Below, in pieces: positions 4,425-55,700 of a DNA stretch of 64,000 nt. The DNA is from an uncultured bacterium (lineage in GTDB: Bacteria > Bacillota > Clostridia > Oscillospirales > Oscillospiraceae): contig CANRXB010000001.1 in NCBI GenBank assembly GCA_947643715.1, positions 1-64,000 on the forward strand. The letters are read 5' to 3'. The translations under genes and the position numbers were made by a program. The notes beneath the pieces are model-generated. The model ran no database searches. It was not told the origin of the DNA and saw only the letters and a program-made list of their open reading frames with translations. The stretch's first letter is position 1. Every line of letters begins with the position of its first letter.

Positions 4425-5756
4425 TCAGTAGTTGATCATATACTTGTCCCGCTCCCAGCTCGACACGCGGGTGCGGTACTCGTCCCATTCCGCCTCTTTC
4501 CCCGCGATGTACTGGGAGCTGACGTGCTCGCCCAAAGTCGCCATCACCAGCTTATCCTTCTTCATCGCGGCGAGGGCCTCCTCCAAAGAGCCGGGCAGCG
4601 CCTCGATGCCCCGGCGCTTCCGGGTGGCGGGGGTCATGGCGAAGATGTTCTCCGTGATCTCGGGGGGCGGGGTCATGCCCTTCTCGATGCCGTCCAGCCC
4701 GGCGGCCAGGCACACGGCCAGAGCCAGATAGGGGTTGCAGGCGGGATCGGGGCAGCGCAGCTCCACCCGGGTGCCCTGGCCCCGGGACGCCGGGATGCGG
4801 ATGAGGGCGGAACGGTTGGAGGCGGACCAGGCCATGTAGCAGGGGGCCTCGTAGCCGGGGACCAGGCGCTTGTAGGAGTTGACCAGCGGGTTGGTGATGG
4901 CGGCCATGCCCTTCATATGGGCCAGGATGCCGGCGATGAACGAATAGCACTCTTTCGAGAGCTGCTTGTGGCCGTCCTCGTCAAAGAACACGTTCTTGCC
5001 GTCCCGGAACAGGGACATGTTGGTGTGCATCCCGGAGCCGTTGATGCCGAAGATCGGCTTGGGCATGAAGGTGGCGTGGAGGCCGTTCTTCTGGGCCAGG
5101 GTCTTGACCGCCAGCTTGAAGGTCATGACCTTGTCGGCGCACTCCAGAGCGGGGGCGTATTTGAAGTCGATCTCATGCTGGCCCTGGGCCACCTCATGGT
5201 GGGACGCCTCGATCTCATACCCCATCTGCTCCAGGGCCAGGCAGATCTCCCGCCGGGTGGACTCGCCGTGATCCAGGGGGCCCAGGTCGAAATAGCCCGC
5301 CTCGTCGTTGGTCTTGGTGGTGGGCTTGCCCTCCTCGTCGGTCTGGAACAGGAAGAACTCCGCCTCAGGCCCCACGTTGAACGTGTCGTAGCCCATGGCC
5401 CTGGCCTTCTCCAGCACCCGCTCCAGCACGCCCCGGGGATCGCCTATGAAGGGGCTGCCGTCCGTGTCGTACACGTCGCAGATCAGTCTGGCCACCTTGC
5501 CGTGCTGGGGCCGCCAGGGGAAGATGACGAAGCTGTCCAGGTCGGGGTACAGGTACTGGTCGGACTCGTTGATGCGGACGAAGCCCTCGATGGAGGAACC
5601 GTCCAGCATGATCTGGTTGTTCACCGCCCTGTCGATCTGGGACGCCGTGATGGCCACGTTCTTGAGCTGGCCGAAGATGTCGGTGAACTGCATCCGGATG
5701 AACTTGACGTCCTCTTCCTTCACGATGCGGATGATGTCCTCTTTGGTATAGCCCAT
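4425..5756 (-). CDS. glnA: Glutamine synthetase, type I
   Basis: ATP-dependent ligation of ammonia to glutamate. 443 aa, the size of the Gram-positive GSI-alpha subunit, which lacks the adenylylation insert of enterobacterial enzymes. Seen: N-terminal [10 protein letters not shown], the metal/glutamate residues in GPEAEFFLF and [11 protein letters not shown], the ATP-site [12 protein letters not shown], and [19 protein letters not shown]. The C-terminal stretch that mediates feedback inhibition and GlnR binding in Bacillus is present. The ATG at 5756 follows AAGGGGAAG; a longer in-frame start at 5774 overlaps that Shine-Dalgarno. It is the first gene of a leftward block (glnA, ANTAR, dapF, dapL, gltB) with its own consensus promoter and a structured leader. 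Confidence 0.97.
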
Positions 5757-9201: not shown

Positions 9202-9882
9202 TCACATCTCCAGGTGTTGGGCCCGGAACATGAGCGCGAGCCGGTAAGCCAGGCCCTCCGAGCATTTCGGCTCCATCCTCATGATGTGCCTTTGTATCTC
9301 CCGCGTCTTGGCTTCGTATCGCTCCTTCCAGTACTGCATCGCCTTATCATAGGTCCTTTTTCGCTCCACCCGGGCTGGGTCGGCAGGATATGCGACGTGA
9401 TGCATACCCATCCCGATCGCATGGCCATCCACCTTGACGGGGGCTCCGCCCACGTTCCAATAGACGATGGGGATCTCCTGTGCGCCGTCCTCCAACTCCA
9501 TGGACGCATCGTCCTCCTTCACCGTGATGCCGTCGTTCGTCCGGTTCACATGGAAAAAGATCTCCACATTGGCGTCAGGACTGCGCAGGGACACACAGTA
9601 GTCCGCCGCCTCTCGGGGCTGCGGCTCCTCCAGGAGCTCCTCGTCGTCAGGCTCCTCACCGACAATCACCTCCACCTCCTCCGGCAGATCGCCGTCACGG
9701 TTCCTGCCCTGGAGGATGCGCGCTTTCCACCTCCGCTCCCCTTCCTTCCGGACGAGGGCGCTGCCGGCCCCCATGCCGGTGATCGTCCGGTCCAGCGCCA
9801 CCACGCAAAAGCCCGGTCCTGCTGCGATATCCCTCTTCCTGACCAGCGACGCGATCTCATCTTTGAGCCTTTTCTTGTCCAT
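9202..9882 (-). CDS. Orphan protein with one copy of the island's shared beta module
   Basis: 226 aa, no family recognised. An N-terminal helix with basic residues (MDKKRLKDEIASLVRK) is followed by a mostly beta region, an acidic stretch around residues 69-90 (EVIVGEEPDDEELLEE), then the island module at about residues 136-163 (IVYWNVGGAPVKVDG; key Asn143 and Gly145). It ends in a long basic/aromatic helix (residues 168-226). The ATG at 9882 has GAGGAGG upstream; longer frames to 10077 lack a good start. No signal peptide or membrane segment, so cytosolic. It is alone on its strand and divergent from the rightward three-gene unit, with a possible -10 (TATGAT, 9953-9958). Real-gene status rests on the Shine-Dalgarno and the shared module. 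Confidence 0.7.
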   Translation of the reverse strand: MDKKRLKDEIASLVRKRDIAAGPGFCVVALDRTITGMGAGSALVRKEGERRWKARILQGRNRDGDLPEEVEVIVGEEPDDEELLEEPQPREAADYCVSLRSPDANVEIFFHVNRTNDGITVKEDDASMELEDGAQEIPIVYWNVGGAPVKVDGHAIGMGMHHVAYPADPARVERKRTYDKAMQYWKERYEAKTREIQRHIMRMEPKCSEGLAYRLALMFRAQHLEM

Positions 9883-10036
9883 ACGTCGTTCCTCCTCTTC
9901 GATGACATCGGACCGACAGCGTATATCGGCCCCCACTCGGATGCTCAAATATATCATAGCACATCTATGGTCCAATAAAAAGGCATCATATCGTGGCCGC
10001 TCAAATCCAACGGCGCCAAAATGATCCAATCGGCCA

Positions 10037-10065
10037 TTGACATCCTTGCGGAGATCTGCTATCAT
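10037..10065 (+). promoter_or_regulatory. Promoter of the rightward island operon
   Basis: TTGACA (10037-10042), 17-bp spacer, TATCAT (10060-10065). Start near 10072 gives a leader of about 208 nt that contains the shared hairpin and a terminator. Confidence 0.75.
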
Positions 10066-10104
10066 CATAGTAGGCAAAGAACGCCCCCCTTTTGAATAAC
10101 GAAG

Positions 10105-10129
10105 TCATATCAGGCTGAATGCGGTATGA
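10105..10129 (+). promoter_or_regulatory. Shared bulged leader hairpin, copy 1
   Basis: TCATATC (10105-10111) pairs with GGTATGA (10123-10129); an AG bulge, a GC/GC pair and a 5-nt loop lie between. The same C-AG-GC-loop-GC-GG arrangement occurs in the leaders at 14893-14911 and 18016-18035 with different but still pairing stems. Confidence 0.55.
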
Positions 10130-10154
10130 TCTGCGTGGAACGCGTGTATGCGGT

Positions 10155-10187
10155 CCGCAAAGGTTTCATATCCTTTCGGTCTTTTTT
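10155..10187 (+). terminator. Intrinsic terminator inside the leader of the rightward island operon
   Basis: CCGCAAAGG pairs with CCTTTCGG (one bulged C), loop TTTCATAT, followed by TCTTTTTT. It lies 93 bp before the first start codon, so the operon can only be expressed by read-through. Confidence 0.6.
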
Positions 10188-10279
10188 CTTGCCGCGTCCA
10201 CCGGGAACGGGTCTTGAGCGCGGTCTTTGTCATTTCGAACAGGAGTCTCTATCCGAGCTCGCATTTGGAGGTGCACACT

Positions 10280-10975
10280 ATGCCAACCCTGTTCTCCTGG
10301 ACTATAAAAGCCCACGGTCCTGTGTCCATCGCCCACGGCGTCGTATCAGGACATCCCAAGCTGCCGGAAGGGGAACACATCCACACTTCACCGATCCTCC
10401 GTTCCACACAAGAGGAGGGCTGCATCCTGCTGGAGACGGCCTCCGGAAGCACGTACCGCCTTCGTCTGGAAGAGATGGACAGCTCGTCGAACGGATCGGA
10501 TCCCCCACTGGCCGATCCTGACCGGCTGGGCCTCTCCCCGAATCTTTGGGCGCGCTGCGCCCAGGCCCGTCAGCGAGCCGCCGAAGGCGAAGAAGCAGCG
10601 CTGCGCGCCTTCTGTGCCCCCTGTACGCTGCGGCTGCGCATCGTCGGCACGACCTCCCTGTCCGCTTTTTGGAGCGATCCGGACTGCCGGATCTGGTGTG
10701 CCCCGATCGGCAGACACCTCGGGACGTTCCAGGATTCCATCCTCATCCGAAGATATCTTCCGGACATGCCCGAGGACTTCCAATTGGACTTCCGATACTT
10801 CCCCTTCCCACACCGCATAGAGCCATACCAGATCTCTGACGGGACAAAAACGCTCCTGATCGTCAACGACGGCCACCAGGACGTGGTCTTTGGCTATCCA
10901 TCGCACGAGATCGTATGCGCGGCAGGGATGATCACGAAGATCGATACCGAAACAGAAAGGTGGGGACTCTATTGA
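10280..10975 (+). CDS. Orphan protein with C-terminal shared beta module
   Basis: 231 aa, no family recognised. Beta-rich N-terminal half (residues 1-65, ending STYRLRLEEM), a helical middle rich in Ala/Arg (residues 88-112), a second beta part with CRIWCAP (136-142), then the island module at residues 190-224 (LLIVNDGHQDVVFGY; Asn196, Gly198; then IVCAAG). The ATG at 10280 has TTTGGAGG upstream and removes a 44-residue extension without a ribosome site. First gene of a unit with the metallophosphoesterase and the P-loop protein; its stop overlaps the next start (TTGA). Cytosolic by sequence. Function unknown. Confidence 0.75.
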   Translation: MPTLFSWTIKAHGPVSIAHGVVSGHPKLPEGEHIHTSPILRSTQEEGCILLETASGSTYRLRLEEMDSSSNGSDPPLADPDRLGLSPNLWARCAQARQRAAEGEEAALRAFCAPCTLRLRIVGTTSLSAFWSDPDCRIWCAPIGRHLGTFQDSILIRRYLPDMPEDFQLDFRYFPFPHRIEPYQISDGTKTLLIVNDGHQDVVFGYPSHEIVCAAGMITKIDTETERWGLY

Positions 10976-11559
10976 TCTATTTTACCGCCGACACCCATTT
11001 TTGTCACGCCAATGTCCTCGAATATGAGGCCCGCCCCTTCCAGACGACGGCGGAGATGGACGAGGCATTGATCCGGAATTGGAACGCCAAGGTACTGCCC
11101 ACCGACGACATCTATATCCTGGGGGACTTCACGCTGAAAGGTCCCTCCCTGGCCAACGCGCTCCTGGAGCGGCTGCATGGCCGCAAGTTCCTGATCCGCG
11201 GGAACCACGACGGCTTCGCCGACCGGAAGTCTTTCCGGTCGGACCTGCTCGTGTGGGTCAAGGACTATTTCGAACTGTCCTGGCAGGACCAGTATCTCAT
11301 CCTCTGCCATTACCCGCTCTTGAGCTGGAACGGTATGCACCGGGGCTCCTTCCATCTCCATGGCCACCAGCACAACAAACGCTGCTATAACCTGCGATCC
11401 CGGGACGACGGCATACGGCGGCTGGACGTGGGCGTAGACGCCCAAGGGATGTCCCCCGTCAGCGTCGAGGACATCCTCGCCTTTTGGGACCGCGCCGAGG
11501 AGATCCCCAGCCGGACAACGGATGACGAAGCGTCGCCGGATATCGCCACGGACCAATGA
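10972..11559 (+). CDS. Metallophosphoesterase (calcineurin-like)
   Basis: 195 aa. Carries the metal-binding signatures of the family in order: D-x-H in FTADTHFCHANV (residues 4-15), GDFTL, GNHDG (about residue 77), then LCHYPLLSW and the C-terminal GHQH. This is the compact phage/plasmid-type phosphoesterase layout; substrates of such proteins include phosphodiesters and nucleotides. The start is most likely the TTG at 10972, which overlaps the upstream stop as TTGA and has AAAGGTGGGG in place; a GTG at 10960 is an alternative. Tight coupling to an orphan gene and a P-loop gene suggests they act together. All metal ligands appear intact, so it should be catalytically active. Confidence 0.88.
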   Translation: MIYFTADTHFCHANVLEYEARPFQTTAEMDEALIRNWNAKVLPTDDIYILGDFTLKGPSLANALLERLHGRKFLIRGNHDGFADRKSFRSDLLVWVKDYFELSWQDQYLILCHYPLLSWNGMHRGSFHLHGHQHNKRCYNLRSRDDGIRRLDVGVDAQGMSPVSVEDILAFWDRAEEIPSRTTDDEASPDIATDQ

Positions 11560-11574
11560 ACGGAGGGCCGTCCC

Positions 11575-12393
11575 ATGCTGATCGCCGCCTATACCTGCTG
11601 CGGGAAAACCACCGCCGCCCAAAAGCTGGGGCCGGATCTGCTGGACCTGCCCAGTATGCCCTACCGTTGGCTGATGCCTTTCAAGGACCTGAGCCTGTGC
11701 GACAGCGCAGAGCTCGAACAGGAGAAAGGCGCTCTTTACCGGATCGCGGACCCTCGCTTCCCGGAGAACTATGTGTTGGATATCTTGAAAGCGGAACACT
11801 GCGGAAAGATCGTGCTCTTCCCCACCATCGTCCCTGTGATCGATATGCTGACGGAGCGGTATGGCCGGGACGTCCTCGTCGTCTACCCTGAGGACGGGCT
11901 AAAGGAAGAGTACCACCAGCGGTGCCTGGACCGGGGCAACAGCGAGAGCTTCCAGCATCTGTTCATCGATGATTGGGAGGATCGGATCGGATACCTCAAG
12001 GAGAGCGGCGGCCGCCACCTTCGGCTGAAAAGCGGAGAGTATCTGCTGTCGGTCCTCCCGGAATTGCTGCGCGGCCGTCCACACCAGCCCGCTGCCTCCC
12101 CCACTCCCGATCGCGCACTGGCGCAGCTCCGGCAGAAGGTCGCCGAACAGGGGAAAGAGCCGGTCCTTTGGCTGGATAGCGCCCCGTCCTGCGCCACGGC
12201 ATGTCAAGTGGACGATCTGGATCGTCCCTCAGTACGCAGCTACCTGGACGCCATCGGCCGGGCAGCCTACGAAAGAGATCTGGATATCTTCTTCCTCCCA
12301 AAACGGCTCCTCCACATCTATGAGCAAGGATGCTCCGTCACGTGGGCCAGGGACCTGGATGAGTTCTATCAGGCCGTCACGCTGACACAGTAG
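11575..12393 (+). CDS. P-loop NTPase-like protein (possible small-molecule kinase)
   Basis: 272 aa. Begins with a P-loop (AAYTCCGKTTAA) in which the first glycine of GxxxxGK[ST] is Ala, directly after a beta strand, as in small kinases that transfer phosphate. It is followed by a D-rich segment (LLDLPSM) and a second strand-loop ending VLVVYPEDGLKEEY at about residue 105, which resembles the lid/base region of phage-type nucleoside or adenylate kinase-like proteins. The C-terminal ~100 residues have no recognisable domain. It starts 15 bp after the phosphoesterase gene with CGGAGGG, and is the last gene of the unit. A kinase/phosphatase pair in one operon is suggestive, but the substrate is unknown. 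Confidence 0.65.
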   Translation: MLIAAYTCCGKTTAAQKLGPDLLDLPSMPYRWLMPFKDLSLCDSAELEQEKGALYRIADPRFPENYVLDILKAEHCGKIVLFPTIVPVIDMLTERYGRDVLVVYPEDGLKEEYHQRCLDRGNSESFQHLFIDDWEDRIGYLKESGGRHLRLKSGEYLLSVLPELLRGRPHQPAASPTPDRALAQLRQKVAEQGKEPVLWLDSAPSCATACQVDDLDRPSVRSYLDAIGRAAYERDLDIFFLPKRLLHIYEQGCSVTWARDLDEFYQAVTLTQ

Positions 12394-12424
12394 CCTCGCG
12401 GCGCCGGGCAAGGCGGCTCCCATC

Positions 12425-12468
12425 AAAAAATGAACGTCCGCCGTACTGTGGAAGTACGGCGGACGTTC
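12425..12468 (-). terminator. Terminator of the leftward E-F-G operon
   Basis: 16-bp perfect arms (GAACGTCCGCCGTACT / AGTACGGCGGACGTTC), 5-nt loop; read leftward it is followed by CATTTTTTG. It ends the leftward unit and also separates it from the convergent P-loop gene. Confidence 0.85.
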
Positions 12469-12498
12469 GCTTCACGCCCTGGCGGGAACGTTCGAAGG

Positions 12499-13449
12499 TC
12501 AGACGCATGGCACCTCAGGCCAGGGGACATCTTCTTCCGTCGAAGTGCCTAGCTGTTCCAGATAAGGCAGTTCGGCGGTGCATTCCTCCATCAGCTCCAA
12601 TGTCGGGGCCTGCCGCAGCTTTTGGAGATCATAGATGATCCCTTTCTGGAAGCGTAAACTTTGTTTCTTCCAGCCCAGCCCGTCATCCCTCATGCCCACA
12701 CCATAAAAATGCATCACCGCTCCCTCTGATCCATCGCGCATACTGCGGATATAGATCTCATGATCTGGATCGCTGGGCATATCACCCAGGATGACCTTGG
12801 CCCAGCCAAGACTGGAAAAAGTTTGGACCACGAACGTGCCGTCCAAGATCTGTTCTCTGCCCCTTCTCCGGCTCCCCTCATCCATCATGCCGCTGGCACA
12901 AATGTTCATGGGCCTCCAACGCTCACCATCCAAGATCAGCGCCGACATCTTCGCTGAGGATCCCTCTTCACTCGAACTGCCGTCTACCGTCAGCAGGACC
13001 TTTTTCTTCTCCCTTTGAGGGGTATTTTCGTCCAGCCTAAGGCACGTTCCCGCAGGGACGGAATATTTTCCGAGGAAGGTATCCACCCAGACCGTCTCCG
13101 CGCCAATGTTCATGATCACCACCGGCTTGGCTGGACCAGCGACCTGTCTTATGCGATCGCCTCTATCGTTCCGGAGGAAAACCCACCTCTCATCAGCAAC
13201 CTCGACCTTCAGGACATAGTTGCCCCTTTCAACGATGTCGACCTGCATCTCTTCATACACGAAACGGACGCCGAGGTCCTCTGAACTACCGTCCTTCCAA
13301 AGATAGACATAGACATTTCTATGATCTTCACAGTTGCTGGGGGCAGCACGAAACCCTTTCGGGACCGTCCCCAAATAAAGGGCCAGCTCTCCTGTGCGGA
13401 TTCCAGTCTTTGGCAGCTCTCTACCAAAAAACGAATAATAGGTGCTCAT
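12499..13449 (-). CDS. Orphan beta-rich protein, paralogue of the next gene upstream
   Basis: 316 aa, no named family. The island module sits at residues 108-141 (VVIMNIGAETVWVD; Asn114, Gly116, then YSVPAG). After it come VLLTVD (151-156) and LILDGERWRP (171-180), at almost the same spacing as VLLDVD and VLDNGAWRQ in the protein of 13452-14306, so the two genes are tandem paralogues. The C-terminal third (residues 200-316) is unrelated or much diverged. The ATG at 13449 has GGAGGGCTTTGAGG upstream and follows the neighbour's stop by 2 nt, so translation is coupled. No signal peptide or membrane segment. Last gene of a three-gene leftward operon. Confidence 0.72.
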   Translation of the reverse strand: MSTYYSFFGRELPKTGIRTGELALYLGTVPKGFRAAPSNCEDHRNVYVYLWKDGSSEDLGVRFVYEEMQVDIVERGNYVLKVEVADERWVFLRNDRGDRIRQVAGPAKPVVIMNIGAETVWVDTFLGKYSVPAGTCLRLDENTPQREKKKVLLTVDGSSSEEGSSAKMSALILDGERWRPMNICASGMMDEGSRRRGREQILDGTFVVQTFSSLGWAKVILGDMPSDPDHEIYIRSMRDGSEGAVMHFYGVGMRDDGLGWKKQSLRFQKGIIYDLQKLRQAPTLELMEECTAELPYLEQLGTSTEEDVPWPEVPCV

Positions 13450-13451
13450 CC

Positions 13452-14306
13452 TCAAAGCCCTCCTCTGTCCCGATCGGACATAGTGAACAACGTCTCCAAT
13501 GGATGGATGTCTCGATCTGGCGGGACCATCCATCCATCATGCCCGGCAGCGCGCAGCTCCAGGGGCCACTTGCCCACGTTCCTGACGTACCACTGCGTGG
13601 GACCGTAGCCGTCGATGTCCAGCACCTCCAGAGCGGGCCGCTCCAAAAAGTAGCTGGAGTAGGAGTCGAAAACGCCCAGGCAGTCATCCTGATACTTGAC
13701 CCGGAGATAGTAGCTGTCCACATGATCCCCGGTGTACATGAACACGTCCCCCTGCCGCCACGCTCCGTTGTCCAGGACATGGACAGCGCGGATACGGATA
13801 TCCAGCGGTCCGCCGCCATCATCCACGTCCAGCAGGACCTTCCAGGGACCGATCCGAGCCAGAGCGTTGGACGGCGTGAGCGGCTGGGGCTCCCCGGCTT
13901 GGACGCGATACATCAGTCCATCGGCCGTTTGGAGCCGCACCGATCGGAAGCCCTTGTTCCTGAGCCAGATCGTACCGGTCCCGGTCTGTTCCACTCGATA
14001 GAAATTGCTGTCCGGGTCGGCACTCCTGCAAAAGATGCAGCATGCCTGATGGTATTCCGCTAGTTCTTCGCTCCTCTGGGACAGCGGCCGGTCGAACGTT
14101 TCCTGGTCGCGGCACCGGTCAAGGTTGATCGACAGCCGCAGCCCCTTCGGATACAGCAGCGACGAGCCGTCCAGGCATTTGCTGCCATCCTTCGTTTTCA
14201 GGTACATCTCCTTACACAGGACATCGTTCCTATCCCATGTCTCCGACTCATGGAGTGACACAAAAATATCGCCCGGCTCCATTCCTTGATAACACGTTCG
14301 TTCCAT
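13452..14306 (-). CDS. Orphan beta-rich protein with two copies of the shared module
   Basis: 284 aa, no named family. Module copies at residues 112-145 (TIWLRNKGFRSVRLQ; Asn117, Gly119; then YRVQAG) and 237-271 (WYVRNVGKWPLELRA; Asn243, Gly245; then WMVPPD). Between them lies a block shared with the downstream paralogue (WKVLLDVDD and HVLDNGAWRQ). The N-terminal part carries several cysteines (residues 30-93), which could bind metal. Start is uncertain: a GTG at 14315 overlaps the upstream stop as GTGA, while the ATG at 14306 is the first ATG; both have weak ribosome sites. Middle gene of the leftward operon. Probably cytosolic. Confidence 0.72.
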   Translation of the reverse strand: MERTCYQGMEPGDIFVSLHESETWDRNDVLCKEMYLKTKDGSKCLDGSSLLYPKGLRLSINLDRCRDQETFDRPLSQRSEELAEYHQACCIFCRSADPDSNFYRVEQTGTGTIWLRNKGFRSVRLQTADGLMYRVQAGEPQPLTPSNALARIGPWKVLLDVDDGGGPLDIRIRAVHVLDNGAWRQGDVFMYTGDHVDSYYLRVKYQDDCLGVFDSYSSYFLERPALEVLDIDGYGPTQWYVRNVGKWPLELRAAGHDGWMVPPDRDIHPLETLFTMSDRDRGGL

Positions 14307-14311
14307 GGCAT

Positions 14312-14749
14312 TCACTCACTTTCGTCAGGATCGCACTCGTCCCCCGCCCCTACGGCGGGGACGTTCGCCAACACGAGGCAGCCGTCTGGCTCCACCACAT
14401 CGCCCAGCATGGCCATGCGCTGCGCGGAATGGTTCCACAGCACGAGGCGGAACCCCTCGAAGTCGCCGACCTCCATGCCGCCGTCCACAAGGAAGGACAG
14501 CTCCACCAACGGCTCACCGTCCACCTCCTCCCCGATCTCGGTGACGTCGTCCACGCCGTCGATGTCCTCGGCGCCCATGGTGGAGGACAGACACAGATTT
14601 CTGAGCTCATCCTTCGCCGGGTCATACATCGCGGCGTTCTCTATGCCCTGTTGGGCGCCGAATTCCACCACGAGCAGCAGATGCGCGGACCCGACGTCCG
14701 ACAAATCGACCTTCTCCATGAGCCGCTCCACATCTTGACTTTTAATCAC
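14312..14749 (-). CDS. Small orphan protein with one shared module
   Basis: 145 aa, acidic, no named family. Begins with a helix (VERLMEKV), then strands, and carries the island module at residues 99-130 (FRLVLWNHSAQRMAML; Asn106, Ser108 in place of Gly; then VVEPDG). The start is taken as the GTG at 14749, which has AAAGGGGA at a good distance; a longer frame to 14917 would run through the leader terminator. First gene of the leftward operon, with a consensus promoter 220 bp upstream and a terminator in its leader. It may be the minimal form of the module. Confidence 0.68.
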   Translation of the reverse strand: MIKSQDVERLMEKVDLSDVGSAHLLLVVEFGAQQGIENAAMYDPAKDELRNLCLSSTMGAEDIDGVDDVTEIGEEVDGEPLVELSFLVDGGMEVGDFEGFRLVLWNHSAQRMAMLGDVVEPDGCLVLANVPAVGAGDECDPDESE

Positions 14750-14792
14750 GTTCCATATCCCCTTTCGGTCATTTCCGCCAGGTCCGCTCCAC

Positions 14793-14833
14793 AAAAAACG
14801 CCTGTCCTCCGGATCGATCTCCGTAGGACAGGC
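14793..14833 (-). terminator. Intrinsic terminator inside the leader of the leftward operon
   Basis: Read leftward: GCCTGTCC and GGACAGGC pair (8 bp), with a second CGGA/TCCG stem inside, followed by GTTTTTTG. It lies between the promoter (14971-14999) and the first start codon (14749), so expression depends on read-through. Confidence 0.85.
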
Positions 14834-14892
14834 ATAGAAAAAGGCGCAAATGTCGGCCCCCTGAACACGATCCCACGAGATCGCATCGGAAA

Positions 14893-14911
14893 CACCGCAT
14901 TTCGCCTGATG
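14893..14911 (-). promoter_or_regulatory. Shared bulged leader hairpin, copy 3
   Basis: Read leftward: CATC, AG bulge, GC, loop GAAAT, GC, GGTG. The stem has G-T pairs and extends beyond a mismatch with GGA/TTC. Same layout as the copies at 10105 and 18016. Confidence 0.5.
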
Positions 14912-14970
14912 ATCCAACGATATTCGGTTGACGGCACCGGAGGAGACTACCTGCCCCGGCTGTTGGAAAC

Positions 14971-14999
14971 AGTATACACCAGCCGGGGGCAGTTGTCAA
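14971..14999 (-). promoter_or_regulatory. Promoter of the leftward E-F-G operon
   Basis: Read leftward: TTGACA (14994-14999), 17-bp spacer, TATACT (14971-14976). Start near 14964, leader about 215 nt. It lies just downstream of the helicase stop, so the three small genes have a promoter separate from the helicase. Confidence 0.85.
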
Positions 15000-15106
15000 G
15001 AGGGATCTCAAGCTCTTCTCGCGGGCGGAGCGCCCCGCGCCCCGGCTGGACGTCCACGGACGCTCCACCGGGACGCGGGGACGTTTCGGATATCGCATCG
15101 CTTCCG

Positions 15107-17863
15107 TCAAACGCCGTCCGCTTCCTTCTGGTATCGGTCGCGCACAGCGCCAAGCCTCATCCTGGATATCCCCAGAGACCAGCACAGCTCATCTATCGAC
15201 TCCAGGTCGCGCCGTGTCCCGATCCCTCTCTTGAAGCATCTCACCATCCCTTGGAAAGAATCCCCTACACACTTCGGCCAGCTCCCCGAACGCCTTGGGG
15301 GGACAGTCTCGCCGTCTGCCTGGGGCCCTGGCCCTGTGTAGAGCCTGGCCAGCTCGAACAGCGCCCAATCCAAAAATTTCGAGCCCGCCCACTGCTGGAC
15401 AGCGCACTCGAACAGCGCCTGGCCCTCAGCCATGAGCGCCTTCTTCGACTCCATCAAGCAGACGTATCCCCGCTGGTGGGCGTGATCCTCGAACACGGCC
15501 TTGTATAGATCGAACGCCTGCGCACCGTCCCCTTCGCGCCCTCTCTCCTCCAGACTGCGAGCGAGATCGCGCATCACATCGTATCTCCATTCATGATATA
15601 CTTGCTCCGGGATCTGTCTGAAATGCTCCATGGCCTTGTCAAGATCCACCGATCGATAATGATCCACCAGCTCGTACCGCGCGGGCACATAGCCCTGTCC
15701 AGCAGACTTTTCCCACCAGGAAACAGCCTCCGGCTCCGCAAGGCAGTGGCCATACATATACTGTGCAGGCGCATATCCCTGTTCTGCGGCAGACTTGAAC
15801 AAGCTTGCCGCCCCCTTTTTCTCGTTCCAGGTCTTATAGCGGTACATATCTCGCTGATACTGCGCGATGGGATGATCCTCCACAGCCCAGCACATATATC
15901 CATGATAGTCATCTTTGGAGTTTATGAAGCTTTCCACCAGCAGCTTGGAGAGCCAGTCCCGATACGTTTCGACCGTGTCCTCATCGCTCCCGCCGAGCGG
16001 CCGGGATACATCCGACAGCTCCTTGCAGAAATCATGGAACCTCCGGCGGCTGTCTCTACAGATCCCGTCCAAACACTCCTGTACGCTGATGGACTTACAT
16101 CCTACCTTCGATACGTCGCTTTCGTCTACGTTCGCGATGTAAGTGATGCGATCGTCCTCCGGCGGAGCCAGCAGCCCCTTGCGTTCCTCCAGACATTTTT
16201 GCAGCTTGGGTCCGCACCGGCACTCATCTCTCACCTTCGTCAGTGCGGCCAGAACGGCCCTCCTGAACTTCTTCGCGCTGCCGCCCTCCCAAGCGCTCAA
16301 GTCCTCGTCCTCACAGCAGAATTCGATGATGTCCCCCCATCGCCCCTCCTCGGGCACGGCCTCATGTTCCAGATGGCGCTGGAACGCCTGGTACACGCTC
16401 CAGAGCTTGTATTCATCGTCCAGGACCTCTCGCGTCTTGGACTCAAAGTCGCCGAGCATCTTGTTCATCGTGAAATGCCGCTCGATGACTTCGCCGCTGA
16501 GCAGTGCGTTCCTGGCGGGGAGATAGCACATCAAGTCCTCGAGGCAGATACCGACCGCGTGGTGGAAGTTGATGGTATCGGTGTCCGGAATCCCTTCCTT
16601 CAACAAATAGCAGGTGAAGATCTCATCAAAATCGCTCTGATCGCGGTCGATACGGCCGAAACGCTGCTCCAGAGCGGCGGGATAAGACGGGATATGATGA
16701 TCCACCACGTGATCGAAACCGGGCAGATCCACCCCTTCTCCGGCGATGGGATAGGTCACGATCAAGACCTTCGGGAGCTGGCTGGCCTCTTCCCCCCGTT
16801 TCCCGTACATAGCCAGCGAGGTGTCCCCCGAATAGTCGGCCTTTTCGCATGGCGGGTCGCAGCGGTACTGCCCCGTCACAGCCGCGACCTCGCGATCCTC
16901 AAAAAATCTGACGGATCCATCGCAGGCGTCCGAAAGCGGCTCTTTGTGCCCCGTCAAGTATTCTCTGAGGTATCTCGCGCCGCTTTTCCCCTCTACGTAT
17001 TTGACGAAGACCAGAAACCGGCTCTTCCCGTTTTTCTCCAGCGCTTCCCGGATCGCGCACAAAAGCGCCTCTTGCTTGCTCCGGCCCTTTCCCCACTCCC
17101 ACAAGATCGGAGGACGACGCTTGGGATAATGCGGGATCTCCCGGACAGGGCCGTCCTTCAAAGCGTTCCAGATACTCTTGAAATACCGGGTCACCGGAGC
17201 CTTCTGATCGAACCTGGCGCAAATGGGCAGACCGGCCTTCTGCCCCTCTTCGATCTCATCGATCCAAGCGTCGGAAAGCTCTTTCCCCGGCAGCATGATA
17301 CTGGCAAGCTCATGGTAGCGTCTCAGATCGCCGAACCCATTTTTGATGGGGGTCGCAGTCAAAAAGACGACCTTCTCTGTTTCGACCCTGTCTCCGCGGC
17401 GGACCCGGCTCCGATAGCTTTCGGCCAGAGCCTGGTAGCGCTCATTTTCCGTTTTGAGGAAACGATGCGCTTCATCGATGATGACGAGTCCATATGCCCC
17501 AACGTTCCTGATGTTCGTATGATGATCGTTGGTGATGTGGATCCTTCCGGTCAGATGCAGATAGCCAAAGGGCAGCTTGTCCCGCCACTTCCCGAGGAAC
17601 TCTCCATCCCAGCCGCCTCTCTCCAGGGCCGGAGTGGTGATCACCAGCACCTTTTTGTCCAGATCCTTGTAGTTGTTGAACAGGTAATGGAGCGCCATCA
17701 GCCCGGCGGTGATCGTCTTGCCGCAGCCCACCTCGTCAAAGATGTACACCGCATCGTTCTCGTCCAGCCGCGCACAGTCAGCCAGTTGAAGGGGGTATCG
17801 GCGGATCGGATCCTTAGTACGATCCAATGCGCGCACCCAGTCCCAATTCGTTCCCTCATCCAT
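15107..17863 (-). CDS. SF2 (SNF2/DEAD-like) helicase with C-terminal Sel1-type repeats
   Basis: 918 aa. ATP-driven nucleic-acid translocase: motif I DEVGCGKT (43-50), motif II DEAH (130-133), motif III TATP (169-172), motif V in AGEGVDLPG (about 374-382) and motif VI QRFGRIDR (400-407), all intact. A CxxxC pair (CDPPC, about 335-339) lies in the second RecA lobe. The region 420-680 is unassigned. Residues ~695-800 carry degenerate Sel1/TPR repeats (LFKSAAEQGYAPAQYMYG, then WWEKSAGQGYVPARYEL), a protein-binding scaffold. The ATG at 17863 is chosen because AAAGGGG has the right spacing; an ATG at 17869 is also in frame. It has its own promoter and no nuclease domain. Helicase-plus-scaffold is a layout seen in some phage-defence and stress proteins, but no known system is matched. 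Confidence 0.85.
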   Translation of the reverse strand: MDEGTNWDWVRALDRTKDPIRRYPLQLADCARLDENDAVYIFDEVGCGKTITAGLMALHYLFNNYKDLDKKVLVITTPALERGGWDGEFLGKWRDKLPFGYLHLTGRIHITNDHHTNIRNVGAYGLVIIDEAHRFLKTENERYQALAESYRSRVRRGDRVETEKVVFLTATPIKNGFGDLRRYHELASIMLPGKELSDAWIDEIEEGQKAGLPICARFDQKAPVTRYFKSIWNALKDGPVREIPHYPKRRPPILWEWGKGRSKQEALLCAIREALEKNGKSRFLVFVKYVEGKSGARYLREYLTGHKEPLSDACDGSVRFFEDREVAAVTGQYRCDPPCEKADYSGDTSLAMYGKRGEEASQLPKVLIVTYPIAGEGVDLPGFDHVVDHHIPSYPAALEQRFGRIDRDQSDFDEIFTCYLLKEGIPDTDTINFHHAVGICLEDLMCYLPARNALLSGEVIERHFTMNKMLGDFESKTREVLDDEYKLWSVYQAFQRHLEHEAVPEEGRWGDIIEFCCEDEDLSAWEGGSAKKFRRAVLAALTKVRDECRCGPKLQKCLEERKGLLAPPEDDRITYIANVDESDVSKVGCKSISVQECLDGICRDSRRRFHDFCKELSDVSRPLGGSDEDTVETYRDWLSKLLVESFINSKDDYHGYMCWAVEDHPIAQYQRDMYRYKTWNEKKGAASLFKSAAEQGYAPAQYMYGHCLAEPEAVSWWEKSAGQGYVPARYELVDHYRSVDLDKAMEHFRQIPEQVYHEWRYDVMRDLARSLEERGREGDGAQAFDLYKAVFEDHAHQRGYVCLMESKKALMAEGQALFECAVQQWAGSKFLDWALFELARLYTGPGPQADGETVPPRRSGSWPKCVGDSFQGMVRCFKRGIGTRRDLESIDELCWSLGISRMRLGAVRDRYQKEADGV

Positions 17864-17903
17864 CCCCATCGCCCCTTTCTTTTTCATGCTTTCGCTCGAA
17901 CAC

Positions 17904-17932
17904 AATATATCACGGAAAAAGAGCGTCGTCAA
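17904..17932 (-). promoter_or_regulatory. Helicase promoter
   Basis: Read leftward: TTGACG (17927-17932), 17-bp spacer, TATATT (17904-17909). Short leader of about 35 nt with no terminator, unlike its neighbours. Confidence 0.75.
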
Positions 17933-17959
17933 TCGTCATGGCCGCGGCGATCTTGCGGC

Positions 17960-17988
17960 TTGACAAATCGAGCCAGGTGCGATATGAT
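17960..17988 (+). promoter_or_regulatory. Promoter of the last island gene
   Basis: TTGACA (17960-17965), 17-bp spacer, TATGAT (17983-17988), divergent from the helicase promoter 28 bp away. Leader about 177 nt. Confidence 0.85.
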
Positions 17989-18015
17989 AGATGCCGACAG
18001 GACAATAAGATATCA

Positions 18016-18035
18016 TGACCAGGCTTTTGCGGTCA
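18016..18035 (+). promoter_or_regulatory. Shared bulged leader hairpin, copy 2
   Basis: TGACC (18016-18020) pairs perfectly with GGTCA (18031-18035); AG bulge, GC/GC pair, loop TTTT. Its 3' strand overlaps the 5' arm of the terminator that follows, so the two structures exclude each other. Confidence 0.55.
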
Positions 18036-18090
18036 CAGATTCTTGCCGGGCGGCGCGTTCGCCCCCAGCAGGTCTCGTGGCCGTTTTTTT
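18030..18090 (+). terminator. Leader terminator of the last island gene
   Basis: CGGTCAC-AGA (18030-18039) pairs with TCT-C-GTGGCCG (18073-18083), with inner CTTGC/GCAGG and GGGCG/CGCCC stems, followed by seven T (18084-18090). It lies 82 bp before the start codon. Confidence 0.65.
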
Positions 18091-18171: not shown

Positions 18172-18783
18172 ATGGAAGAAAGATACTATGCCATCGAGTT
18201 GGAGGACTACTCCACCCCCCCGTTCTGCTCCGGCTTCACCAGGACTTACGCCGGAACGAAAGAAATGCTGGCCAGATTCATGGAGAAGCTGGCCCAACGC
18301 GAGCATTTCAGCGCGCTGGTGGATGCCTATCACGCCTGGCTGAAAGATGGACGCATCGGCACGGTCGATCACGATTACTGCCAATGCTGGAACATCCGCC
18401 CACTCGAGGTATATCGGATCACAGATATCGACCGCTCCGATCTCTCCATAACGCACATCAACACGTACCATTACCCTTACGACTTCCATGCCGATCGTGT
18501 GCAGGCCCAGATCCTTCACGCCAAAGATGGAGGGACTTGGTGCCGCTTCGTGCGCGCGGCATTCTGGCAACTGCAATGCGACTCGCTCGGACTGGGATAT
18601 GCACCGATCGACATGACCTGGGGACATCCCGCCATGCTGGAACGTCAGGGCGTCGTCCTGTCCGATCGGCTGTTGTTCCAAGAACGGATACTGGACAGTG
18701 AGGGAGCCGCGCTCCGGGACATGGACTCGCCCGCAGAGATCGACTTTTCCGGATTCATGAAGGACATCCTTGGAGACGGATGA
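18172..18783 (+). CDS. Orphan protein of the helicase island
   Basis: 203 aa, no family recognised. Rich in aromatic residues and histidine (HINTYHYPYDFHADR), with a helical N-terminal half (TKEMLARFMEKLAQREHFSA) and a CQCW motif at about residue 66. No signal peptide or membrane segment, so probably cytosolic. AGGAGGAGACC gives the ATG at 18172. It does not carry the shared beta module, but its leader has the same bulged hairpin and an intrinsic terminator, which ties it to the other two units by regulation. Single-gene unit, convergent with the TetR gene. Confidence 0.75.
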   Translation: MEERYYAIELEDYSTPPFCSGFTRTYAGTKEMLARFMEKLAQREHFSALVDAYHAWLKDGRIGTVDHDYCQCWNIRPLEVYRITDIDRSDLSITHINTYHYPYDFHADRVQAQILHAKDGGTWCRFVRAAFWQLQCDSLGLGYAPIDMTWGHPAMLERQGVVLSDRLLFQERILDSEGAALRDMDSPAEIDFSGFMKDILGDG

Positions 18784-51809: not shown

Positions 51810-51834
51810 GTGAGGACCGACACAAATGACAAAG

Positions 51835-51925
51835 ATAAAAACGCAACGCACATCTGATGCGGTGTGCCAGAGCCGGTAGGTAGCCCGGCCGTCTCGTCAT
51901 CTCGACGAGGTAAGTAACCTGCCCC
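51835..51925 (+). promoter_or_regulatory. Candidate yjdF RNA motif (azaaromatic-sensing riboswitch)
   Basis: Directly upstream of the yjdF gene lies a compact folded RNA: CGCAACGCACATC...GATGCGGTGTGCC, AGCCGGTAGGTAGCCCGGCC, and CTCGTC/GACGAG ending GGTAAGTAACC. Position and general form fit the yjdF motif, which activates yjdF when azaaromatic compounds bind. Not checked with a covariance model. Confidence 0.65.
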
Positions 51926-51973
51926 TCCCGGGTCGTCCATTCTTTGTCCATAACACATTCAGGAGGGAACGTT

Positions 51974-52726: not shown

Positions 52727-55700
52727 ATGGAGAAGCTGAGCGTTCGCAGGAACAGGGAGCTGACCGTCCCCCGGTATCAAAAAACGGGCAAGACGGAGAA
52801 ACAGGACAGCGCGGGCCCGGCCCGACCGGCAGCCGGGCAAAAGAGAGCGGCGGCGACCGTCTCCGAGACGCTGCGGAAGCTGATGGGCTGGGTCACCCAG
52901 GCGGGACGCCAGGCCCGGGAGGGCCGCCGGACCCTCCAGTCGGGAGAGGCGGCTCTGGCGGAGGTCGAGGACAACCTGGGCCGCATGGAGGAGCTGGCCC
53001 GCCAGGCCGCCGAGGACGGCGTGGTGGACCGCGCCGCCCTTCAAGCAGAGCTGGAGCGGCTGCGCGGGGAGGTCGATCAGATCGCCCAAAACGGCGTACA
53101 GGCGGGGCTGTTCCAGGACGGAGAGGCCGGAGACGGCCTGGACGCGCTGGTGGATGCGGTGATAGACGGCCTGGATGCCCGGCAGGAAGGGGTGGAGAGC
53201 CTCCCACCTTGGCTGCTGGGCGCCATGACGGGCGGCGCGCCTGACCGAGACGCACTGCTGGCGGCCTTGGGGATCGACAGTACCGCCAGCGGGGCGCAGG
53301 TGCTGGCCGCCCTGGGCAAGCTCCCGCTGGATAGCAGCCCCGTGGCGGGGTATCTGGCCGCGTTGTACCTGGGGGCGGTCATCTCCGGGGGCGTGCCCTC
53401 AGGGGCGGTGGACCCGGAGCAGGCGGCGCAGGGGCTGCGGCAGCTACTCGAGCTGGTGGCCCAAGGCGTCTCCACGGATCAGGCGCTGGAACATCTGACG
53501 GGCGGCGCTTTCACCAGCATGGAGCAGTTCCAGGCCCAGTTCTCCAGCGGCACCGCCCCGGGGCTGGAGCCCTTTTTGATGAGCCTGCTCCATACAGGAG
53601 AGACCGCCCCGTCCATGCCCGAGCTGCTGGATCTGCTGGCGGGAAACGGCGGAGAGATGGGGCTGCTGATGGACCTGCTGGCGGGCTCTGGCGGCGGGCT
53701 GATGGCGCTGCTGGACGGACTGGGCACATCGGAGGGCGCGGCCCAGCTCCAAGGTGCGCCGGAAGGCGCGGTCCAGCCCCAGAACGCCTCAGAGGCCACG
53801 GTCCAGCTCCAGGGTGCGTCGGAGGGCGGCGCTCAGCCCCACGGCGCGGAGAGCGTGACCGCCCATCCCTTTGTGTCGGATCGTCTGGGAACAGTGCAGG
53901 GCTCGGGCCGGGATCTGTCCGCCGCGGCCTTCGACCCGGAGAGCGATATGCTGACGGTGGCCGGAGACCAGGACGTGATCCTCCGCGGACTGGGGCAGGA
54001 GGCCCCGGCGCTCCGGCTGACGGGTACGGGGAAAGTGGTGCTCCAGCAGATAGACGCTCCCCTGCTGAACGCGCAGTCCGCCCAGGCCCGGGTGACGGCT
54101 GCTGGGGAGAGCACACTGGCCCAGGTGCAGTTGGGCAAGGGCGCCGTACTCACCGTCGACGGCGGCGGACTGCTGCACATCGGGCAGCTCCGGGCCGGAG
54201 CGGGCAGCGTCCTGCGGCTCACCGGGGGCGCGGTAGTGCTGAGCGGGGAGGTTTCCGGGACCCTGGCGGCCCAGGTAGTGGTGGATGGCCCCGTCTCTCT
54301 GCTGGCGGCACAGGGCATCACCGTGCGCAGCGCCCAGGGCGAACCGCTGACCCCCTTCGACCTCGTGTGGAAAACGCTGCTCCCGGAGTGGAGCTCCGTC
54401 ACCGCCCTGGCGGTGGACGGCAAGCAGGGACAGCTCGACCTGAGAAGGGACGGCCAGATCGACATGGCCCGGCTGTGGCTGCTGAAGGGGGAGGATCCCA
54501 AAAGATATCCTGCCCACACCATCGCCCTGCGGGGGAGAGACAAGGCGGGCCGTACCCAGACCTGGTATACCTATGTGCGCTGGGACGAAAAAGCGGGGGC
54601 CTTCCAGGAGATCTCCAGGTATCCGAACCCCTTTTCCGTCACCGGCGGGGAGCCGGAGACAGATTGGCGGTACGAGGAAGAGAGCCACACCCTCTACATC
54701 CTGTCTAACCAGGTCACTGCCGTGGCCGGAGGGGCTGGGACGGACGCGGACCGTCTGCCCTTCAGCGGCAGGATCGTCCTAGCCGACGGCATCGGCCCGA
54801 TAAAGCTGATCCTGGACGGCGTGGAGTGCCGGGTATCCTCCGGCAGAGCGTTCGACCTGGGCCGTGGGAACGATGTGACCCTGCTTTTGCAGCGGGGGAC
54901 GAACAACGTATTCGAGAGCGGCGCTGGCTTCGCGGGGATATCGCTGGGCGACGGCACTTCCCTGCGCATCGACCAGACGAAAGACCCCAAAGGGGATCCC
55001 GACGGCACGCTCACCGCCACAGGCGCCGCTGGGGGCGCGGGCATCGGCCGGGACAGCGGCGTGGGGCGGGAGCGCACCGGTCCCATCCACATCCGGGGCG
55101 GCGTGGTCACCGCCATCGGGACAGGAGGAGGCGCGGGCATCGGCGGCGCTCTGGGCGCCCCCGTGGGAGACATACGCATCCAGGGCGGCACGGTGACGGC
55201 CCAGGCCACCTGCTGCGCCGCCGCCATCGGCGCGGGGATACAGGGGGCCTGCGGCGATATCGTCATCACAGGGTCCGCCCGGGTGGTGAAAGCCCAAGGG
55301 GGCGGGCCGGACGGGGACATCGGCGGCTGCCTCTTCGGCAACTGCGGGAAGGTCCAGGTGTCCGCCGGCACGGAGATTGGGGACGCCAAGCTCTGGACCC
55401 GGCAGGGGCTGTCCTTCCAGGTGGGAGAATCCAGTGTGACGCTGCCCCGCTTCCGCGTTTCCGCCCGGGCGCTGCGCCTGGACGCATTGGATCTCACCAC
55501 CCGGGAGGCGGCCAGGGCCGCCATAGAGGTGCTGATCTCGGACCGCCGCTGGGTCACCCGGCTCCTGGGGACCTACGGCGCTATGTACGGCCACTTGGGG
55601 CAGAGCATCGGCAATATACAAAGCTTTCACCAGCATATCGGCGTGGTGCGGGACAATACGGAGGCCAGCTCCCTGACCTATGATATCCGCGAGGTGCTCC

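Follow-up and report, generated by a model that had tools for sequence, protein, structure and literature searches.

The window, by which we mean the whole stretch of 64,000 nucleotides analysed here (contig CANRXB010000001.1, from an uncultured bacterium of the Oscillospiraceae), carries three transcription units that open with genes A, B and F. Gene A (10280..10975, +) encodes 231 aa with no Pfam family above cut-off, and its predicted structure (mean pLDDT 87.3) is mostly beta with one long helix. It is the first gene of the A unit, which continues with a metallophosphoesterase-like gene (10972..11559, +; PF00149 above cut-off, phrog_547 with E 2.2e-49) and a third gene (11575..12393, +; phrog_4182, unknown function, E 1.5e-20). 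The second unit comprises gene B (14312..14749, -, 145 aa, GTG start), gene C (13452..14306, -, 284 aa), which is found in 4 of 396 relatives, its own genome included, and gene D (12499..13449, -, 316 aa). Gene F (18172..18783, +) encodes 203 aa. The SNF2/DEAD-type helicase gene of the island (15107..17860, -) partially resembles DpdE and DrmD; there is no model match in its own leader, which is without the element described below.

In the leader of each of the three units (10280, +; 14749, -; 18172, +), a hairpin of the form YC-AN-GC-(4-5 nt)-GC-GG and a U-tract stand before the start codon, and the hairpin lies 21-53 nt past the predicted start of a TTGACA-17-TATNNT promoter, which matches the consensus at 11/12 positions in all three. 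In the A unit, the promoter TTGACA-17-TATCAT (10037..10065, +) is followed by the putative antiterminator hairpin GTCATATC-AG-GC-TGAAT-GC-GGTATGAT (10104..10130, +), with an 8-bp stem, an AG bulge and the loop TGAAT. The overlapping intrinsic terminator (10112..10187, +) takes its 5' half from AGGCTGAA of the hairpin and ends with the U-tract TTTTTT (10182-10187); 10 of the 12 nt on its T side pair into the hairpin in the MFE fold. The B-C-D unit has the promoter TTGACA-17-TATACT (14971..14999, -) and the hairpin CATC-AG-GC-GAAAT-GC-GGTG (14893..14911, -), with a 4-bp stem, an AG bulge and the loop GAAAT. Its first terminator T1 (14838..14907, -) overlaps the hairpin, the AGGCGAAAT side pairing with ATTTGCGCCT, and has a 5-T tract at 14842-14838. 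A second one, T2 (14793..14836, -; about -26 kcal/mol, 6-T tract), is not removed by the hairpin. Before gene F come the promoter TTGACA-17-TATGAT (17960..17988, +), the hairpin TGACC-AG-GC-TTTT-GC-GGTCA (18016..18035, +; 5-bp stem, AG bulge, loop TTTT) and an overlapping terminator (18029..18090, +) in which GCGGTCAC of the hairpin 3' arm pairs with GTGGCCGT, ending with a 7-T tract at 18084-18090.

The three hairpin copies, whose stems differ and still pair, are found where the preliminary description had placed them, as can be read directly in the window. It had also placed a terminator hairpin with a tract of 6-7 T between each element and the start codon. Terminators with U-tracts are indeed present, but they are not separate, as their 5' half is made from the element itself. 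Moreover the first terminators have 6, 5 and 7 T respectively, and the 6-T tract of the leader at 14749 belongs to the second, independent terminator.

Leaders of the same kind in related genomes

The plain motif occurs 132 times on the forward and 132 times on the reverse strand of the 2.63-Mb genome to which the window belongs, against 149 and 161 times for the reversed pattern, which speaks against a genome-wide regulon drawn from the bare motif. In the window AG is not a preferred bulge: 12 hairpins have it before GC with a stem of 4 bp or more, and other dinucleotides in its place give 1-19. Hence, the three copies alone are little proof, and it is for the relatives to decide.

The 8 sequences of a first model, R1, were selected from four genomes by their core and stem. 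In the window it gives the three copies 32-37 bits and the next match 10.4 bits. All three copies belong to its training, so that the independent evidence lies in the members outside training. Model R2 (11 sequences) adds G040_A, G032_A and G032_H, leaders with an AU or AA bulge chosen by eye in intergenic regions beside known genes. Over the 42 genomes of the genus, the window's own (G000) included, R2 yielded three new members, G032:C14:71037-, G032:C14:71185+ and G040:C10:49668+, and a local scan gave a fourth beside the last one, at 17.9 bits; R2 together with these four forms model R3. The R2 search had returned 38 matches, 11 of training and 27 new. Among the new ones, 13 were read (3 real), one more was read (not real), seven entered the promoter and U-tract test described below, and G000:C16:52343 was recognised as a member only after a search with a promoter-plus-core pattern, while the other 5 of the 27 (one of them too short) stayed outside testing. 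This pattern had pointed to contig C16 of G000, on which two leaders stand as a divergent pair (L171:5352-5370- and 5535-5558+). The final set contains 17 leaders: 5 in G000, 4 in G040, 6 in G032 and 2 in G022.

Over the 396 relatives, R1 gives each of its eight training copies an E-value no higher than 1.8e-5, and the other matches begin at 1.9e-4 (G068) and 4.5e-4 (G303). With R3, the score alone does not set the weaker island members (E about 0.001) apart from several matches outside the islands, of which the best is in G263 (E 8.8e-4); the separation is made by the promoter and the terminator. A promoter matching at 10/12 positions or more, together with a U-tract no further than 75 nt away, was found at none of 46 non-island loci and at 10 of 10 island loci, the latter representing 6 distinct leaders. 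The 46 consist of 26 R1, 13 R2 and 7 R3 loci, with one G039 site counted twice and two too-short R2 loci dropped, and the test covered the matches that have a locus, which are a small minority of the R1 list. Six members lie outside training: 71037- and 71185+ in G032, 49668+ on C10 of G040, its low-scoring divergent partner, and the two on C16 of G000. All six carry a promoter and a U-tract, neither of which is contained in the models.

The check by which the preliminary description proposed to be judged, namely whether the motif is at chance frequency and not enriched in leaders, was run with a divided outcome: the bare motif is at chance, and the structured, promoter-linked form is found in the leaders of one gene set. 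A chance likeness of three leaders, in favour of which that frequency would speak, is extremely improbable, since 17 members, each linked to a promoter and overlapping a terminator, stand next to recurring gene families, and it is contradicted by the members outside training. The promoter-plus-core pattern itself matches in 90 of the 396 genomes, and exceeds its reversed control also in genomes free of islands; it is therefore unspecific when taken by itself. Some lysine riboswitch leaders (RF00168; 88.9 and 77.7 bits) fit this pattern by coincidence, at L160, L163 and similar loci of the same genus.

We aligned the 17 leaders. Eight core nucleotides, C12, A13, G15, C16, G22, C23, G24 and G25, are invariant. 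The AG which had been taken as the sole bulge is present in 10 leaders, with AU in 5 and AA in 2; next to the closing C-G, 12 leaders have a U-G pair and 5 a second C-G. The six innermost pairs are formed in every row, and the four outer ones are unpaired in 3 to 9 of the 17 rows. Two-sided changes affect 6 of the 10 pairs. The covariation score is 0.492, against 0.203 in shuffled alignments (0 of 500 reach it) and at most 0.220 in slid versions, and the cell counts are likewise above shuffles. Two other measures do not exceed them: 380 of 500 shuffles reach the observed number of pairs changed on both sides, and 121 of 500 that of additional pair types. Between genomes, the H leaders are orthologous to one another, and so are the B' leaders and the C leaders, which means that some of the leaders are not independent events. 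In 9 of the 17 leaders the sequence AATA stands a short distance 5' to the hairpin (in the window at 10095-10098 and 18004-18007); 500 shuffles give a mean of 2.5 and a maximum of 9.

The 12 leaders outside G000 come from 3 of the 41 other genomes of the genus. A wide spread in the family or the order is not what we found: under strict filters, and with incomplete genomes in the sample, the search places the element in only 4 of the 396 relatives. As for a spread beyond the genus, the best matches outside islands are those in G068 and G303 (R1) and in G263 (R3), and those that were read are without promoter plus U-tract. The element is, as far as it was tested, confined to one gene set. Of 148 other genomes searched, four have a homologue of protein A, three of them in the same genus (G022, G032, G040) and one in the same family (G055). 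The same hairpin is present at all three loci of the genus. At the G055 locus (L042) no element was found, the best model match having 10.0 bits, and none was found at three Lachnospiraceae loci with A homologues, where the best matches have 16.3, 12.8 and 9.5 bits, the first two lying, by eye, inside a frame just upstream of A. In two of the distant Lachnospiraceae loci (L078 and L079, about 9400-9970) the A homologue stands directly behind a frame which looks by eye like a tyrosine recombinase. Protein H is present in 1 of 210 genomes of an evenly drawn family sample, the window's own.

Carriage by viruses or plasmids was not borne out. When viral sequences were scanned with proteins F, A, C and B', no relatives came up; for protein A there is a single weak match to a phage fragment (E 6e-4, over 27% of the query) and none to a plasmid. 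The motif-terminator pattern occurs at 8 viral loci, six with 2-bp stems and two, near-identical, with 5 and 4 bp.

Hairpin, terminator and candidate ligands

All 17 leaders have a promoter, the hairpin and a U-tract, the promoter matching at 10-12 of 12 positions in 16 of them and at 9 in the remaining one. In every one the 5' half of the terminator uses the hairpin, 4-11 of the 12 nt at the U-tract pairing into it in the MFE fold. The summed overlap is 136, against 44.0 +/- 13.3 (maximum 85) in 200 shuffles of the stretch between hairpin and U-tract. For single leaders, 0 to 83 of the 200 shuffles reach the observed overlap (83 for G000_H, 77 for G032_H, 70 for G040_A and G040_H, 65 for G032_A, 55 for G032_N); the evidence therefore rests in the set. 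Two registers occur. Terminator stems of type 1 (10280, 14749) begin with AGGC and the loop, those of type 2 (18172 and the leaders of A and H) with GCGG and the 3' arm. CANGC is conserved also in leaders whose terminator stem does not begin before GCGG, hence the hairpin itself appears to be selected. Folding gives in all 17 leaders what defines an antiterminator/terminator attenuator, that is, two mutually exclusive structures, one of them an intrinsic terminator with a U-tract. This means that, as modelled, the leaders have the anatomy of such a switch, off by default. The proposal of a common leader RNA linked to termination and off by default is in this way upheld at the level of sequence, by the 17 leaders, their covariation, the promoter and U-tract present in all of them and the predicted mutual exclusion.

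According to the folding computation, forcing the hairpin costs 1.7-15.5 kcal/mol in the 17 leaders, so that something must hold the hairpin for it to win. We propose, with a probability of roughly 0.6, that the element is a small antiterminator hairpin which, held by a trans-acting ligand, blocks the terminator and switches the units on together. Transcription would start 9-63 nt upstream of the hairpin, which would fold first. As the polymerase advances, downstream sequence would capture the hairpin loop and 3' arm into the stronger U-tract terminator, the default state being OFF, unless a ligand specific for the invariant C-A-N-G-C...G-C-G-G core and its A-N bulge keeps the hairpin in place. 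We infer that termination does occur in the cell and that the hairpin is the ON state. The ligand would probably be a protein, a preference that comes only from the size of the core: its roughly 20 nt, preceded by no more than 9 nt in the shortest case, are few for a metabolite aptamer. To our knowledge, the element would be among the smallest antiterminators.

The size of the core bears on a second reading, in which the bulged hairpin, perhaps together with the 5' AATA, is a minimal aptamer stabilised by a small molecule. An invariant core with variable stems is what aptamers have, and the excess of AATA noted above goes in the same direction; against this, about 20 nt would have to suffice with a loop of variable sequence, no metabolic theme was recognised in the gene set, only four genomes carry the element, and Rfam 15, searched with 13 of the 17 leaders (all but G032_A, _C, _M and _N), gave no match. 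In that search the three window leaders, G000_H and G000_B were taken at the gathering score, and ten leaders, two of them the window's, at a permissive threshold. We regard a riboswitch as quite unlikely. Constitutive weak attenuators, where the hairpin is a folding intermediate or a transcript stabiliser duplicated with the genes and served by no regulator, are a still poorer candidate. They would agree with the lack of a regulator among our results and with the orthology of the H, B' and C leaders, but hardly with a core that is kept before different gene families while the stems covary, nor with CANGC being kept outside the terminator stem.

Several known systems stand close to the proposed antiterminator, which would function like the BglG/SacY-RAT but matched none of the families tested. 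In the BglG/SacY (LicT) family (PMC9981650), the RAT is a small imperfect leader hairpin that excludes an overlapping intrinsic terminator, with a default-off state; our leader hairpin is likewise predicted to exclude an overlapping terminator and to leave the units off by default. Unlike that family, no PTS gene was recognised among the targets here, and CAT_RBD (PF03123) has no match in G000, which is 96% complete and has 5 leaders, against 1 in G022, 1 in G032 and 2 in G040. This speaks against a BglG-type protein as obligatory regulator. The core CANGC-GCGG with one 2-nt bulge also appears to differ from the RAT. In the ANTAR leaders (EutV, NasR, AmiR), according to PMC3369931, the antiterminator overlaps the 5' part of the terminator and one motif recurs in several leaders, as is the case here. 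ANTAR sites consist of two hairpins whose hexanucleotide loops are conserved at positions 1 and 4, whereas here there is one bulged hairpin; the two-hairpin arrangement is absent from our leaders, the loops having 4-5 nt in 17 of 17 and only 9 and 12 nt standing before the hairpin in two of them. Among the island proteins scanned, no RNA-binding domain was recognised.

A purely local switch leaves one feature aside. Behind T1, a strong T2 is present in 7 of the 17 leaders (w14749, G000_B, G040_B, G040_C, G032_B, G032_C and G022_B), all of B or C units. In the six that were scanned, T2 has -18.1 to -29.6 kcal/mol and its U-tract begins 83-100 nt past the core. With the hairpin forced, T2 stays paired at 0.78-1.0 in these six and is kept in the forced MFE fold of G000_B. 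Nine other leaders scanned (G000_H left out) have no comparable T2, the nearest being that of w10280 with -15.9 kcal/mol before TTTGTC. As T2 stays folded when the hairpin is forced, a purely local switch would not express the genes of those seven units.

This is the main reason why a processive mechanism stays alive, in which the hairpin either loads a factor for processive antitermination or, in the manner of put, EAR and conAn, acts directly on RNA polymerase, and the polymerase, so modified, reads through T1, T2 and later terminators. The LoaP/dfn system offers a precedent, since according to PMC12691694 a leader hairpin is paired with terminators; a hairpin before terminators, and the possible read-through of more than one of them, are common to both cases. 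However, the dfn loop is of the UNCG type, which is found in 0 of our 17 hairpins, and LoaP (NF033641) gives no match above cut-off in any of the four genomes, each having one match below it; the one NusG-family gene of G000 adjoins an apparent L11 gene, recognised as such by eye. This speaks against LoaP as the regulator. The conAn, EAR and put RNAs, according to PMC8955417, stand near the operon start and modify termination, as our element would. They differ in acting processively, and no Rfam match was obtained at the leaders searched, in a comparison that did not extend to put and conAn. A processive site need not overlap T1, yet the overlap exists in 17 of 17 leaders, and no comparable T2 follows in the nine others. 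Overlap with T1 is not known as a feature of conAn, EAR or put. Altogether this reading is rather unlikely.

It is likewise doubtful, though worth stating, that the leaders belong to a new island-borne antitermination system, in which one RNA core set before many units would let a single factor license a defence-type gene set and read through the tandem terminators of the B and C operons, without LoaP, without a BglG-type protein in at least one host and without an ANTAR-type RNA site. Nothing describing this element was met in the literature searched, a statement which holds for that literature only.

Genes behind the element

The leaders precede the A unit (3 leaders), B' (4), H (4), the window's B (1), C (2), F (1), a sacsin-type ATPase (1) and, in G032, a stretch without a clear first gene (1). 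H and B' form a divergent pair with an element each in all four genomes, as the alignments show. The sacsin-type ATPase of G032 (L113:9294-10994 and L040:38-2596), behind one element, matches NCBIfam P_loop_sacsin, and its first 567 residues match PADLOC TmtA (8e-91). TmtA is presumably the Tiamat defence protein. A defence role of the islands is a lead, not a result.

If the antiterminator reading is true, an island gene set, with a TmtA-like gene of defence type in one genome, would be held off by termination and released together, and knowing the ligand would show what activates such islands. The controlled gene families, several of them with an N-x-G ... G ... PG module, would become a defined regulon. 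This module was seen by eye in the otherwise unrelated-looking proteins A, B', C, D, E and H (for B' and H, in L171/L114/L040/L041); perhaps it is one small beta domain. Those of its carriers that were scanned have no Pfam family above cut-off.

Finally we must note some peculiarities of single loci. Gene C of G032 (L040:9354-9749) matches only positions 22-99 of 283 and is a fragment, yet its leader is intact. Also in G032, a leader like that of 10280 (L113:8870-9140, -) stands before the stretch without a clear first gene; the gene after it resembles one for a membrane protein and has a promoter-like sequence of its own. In the window, a yjdF (azaaromatic) riboswitch (RF01764, 67.8 bits) is found at 51825-51956 (+), some 770 nt before the 1013-aa open reading frame at 52727.
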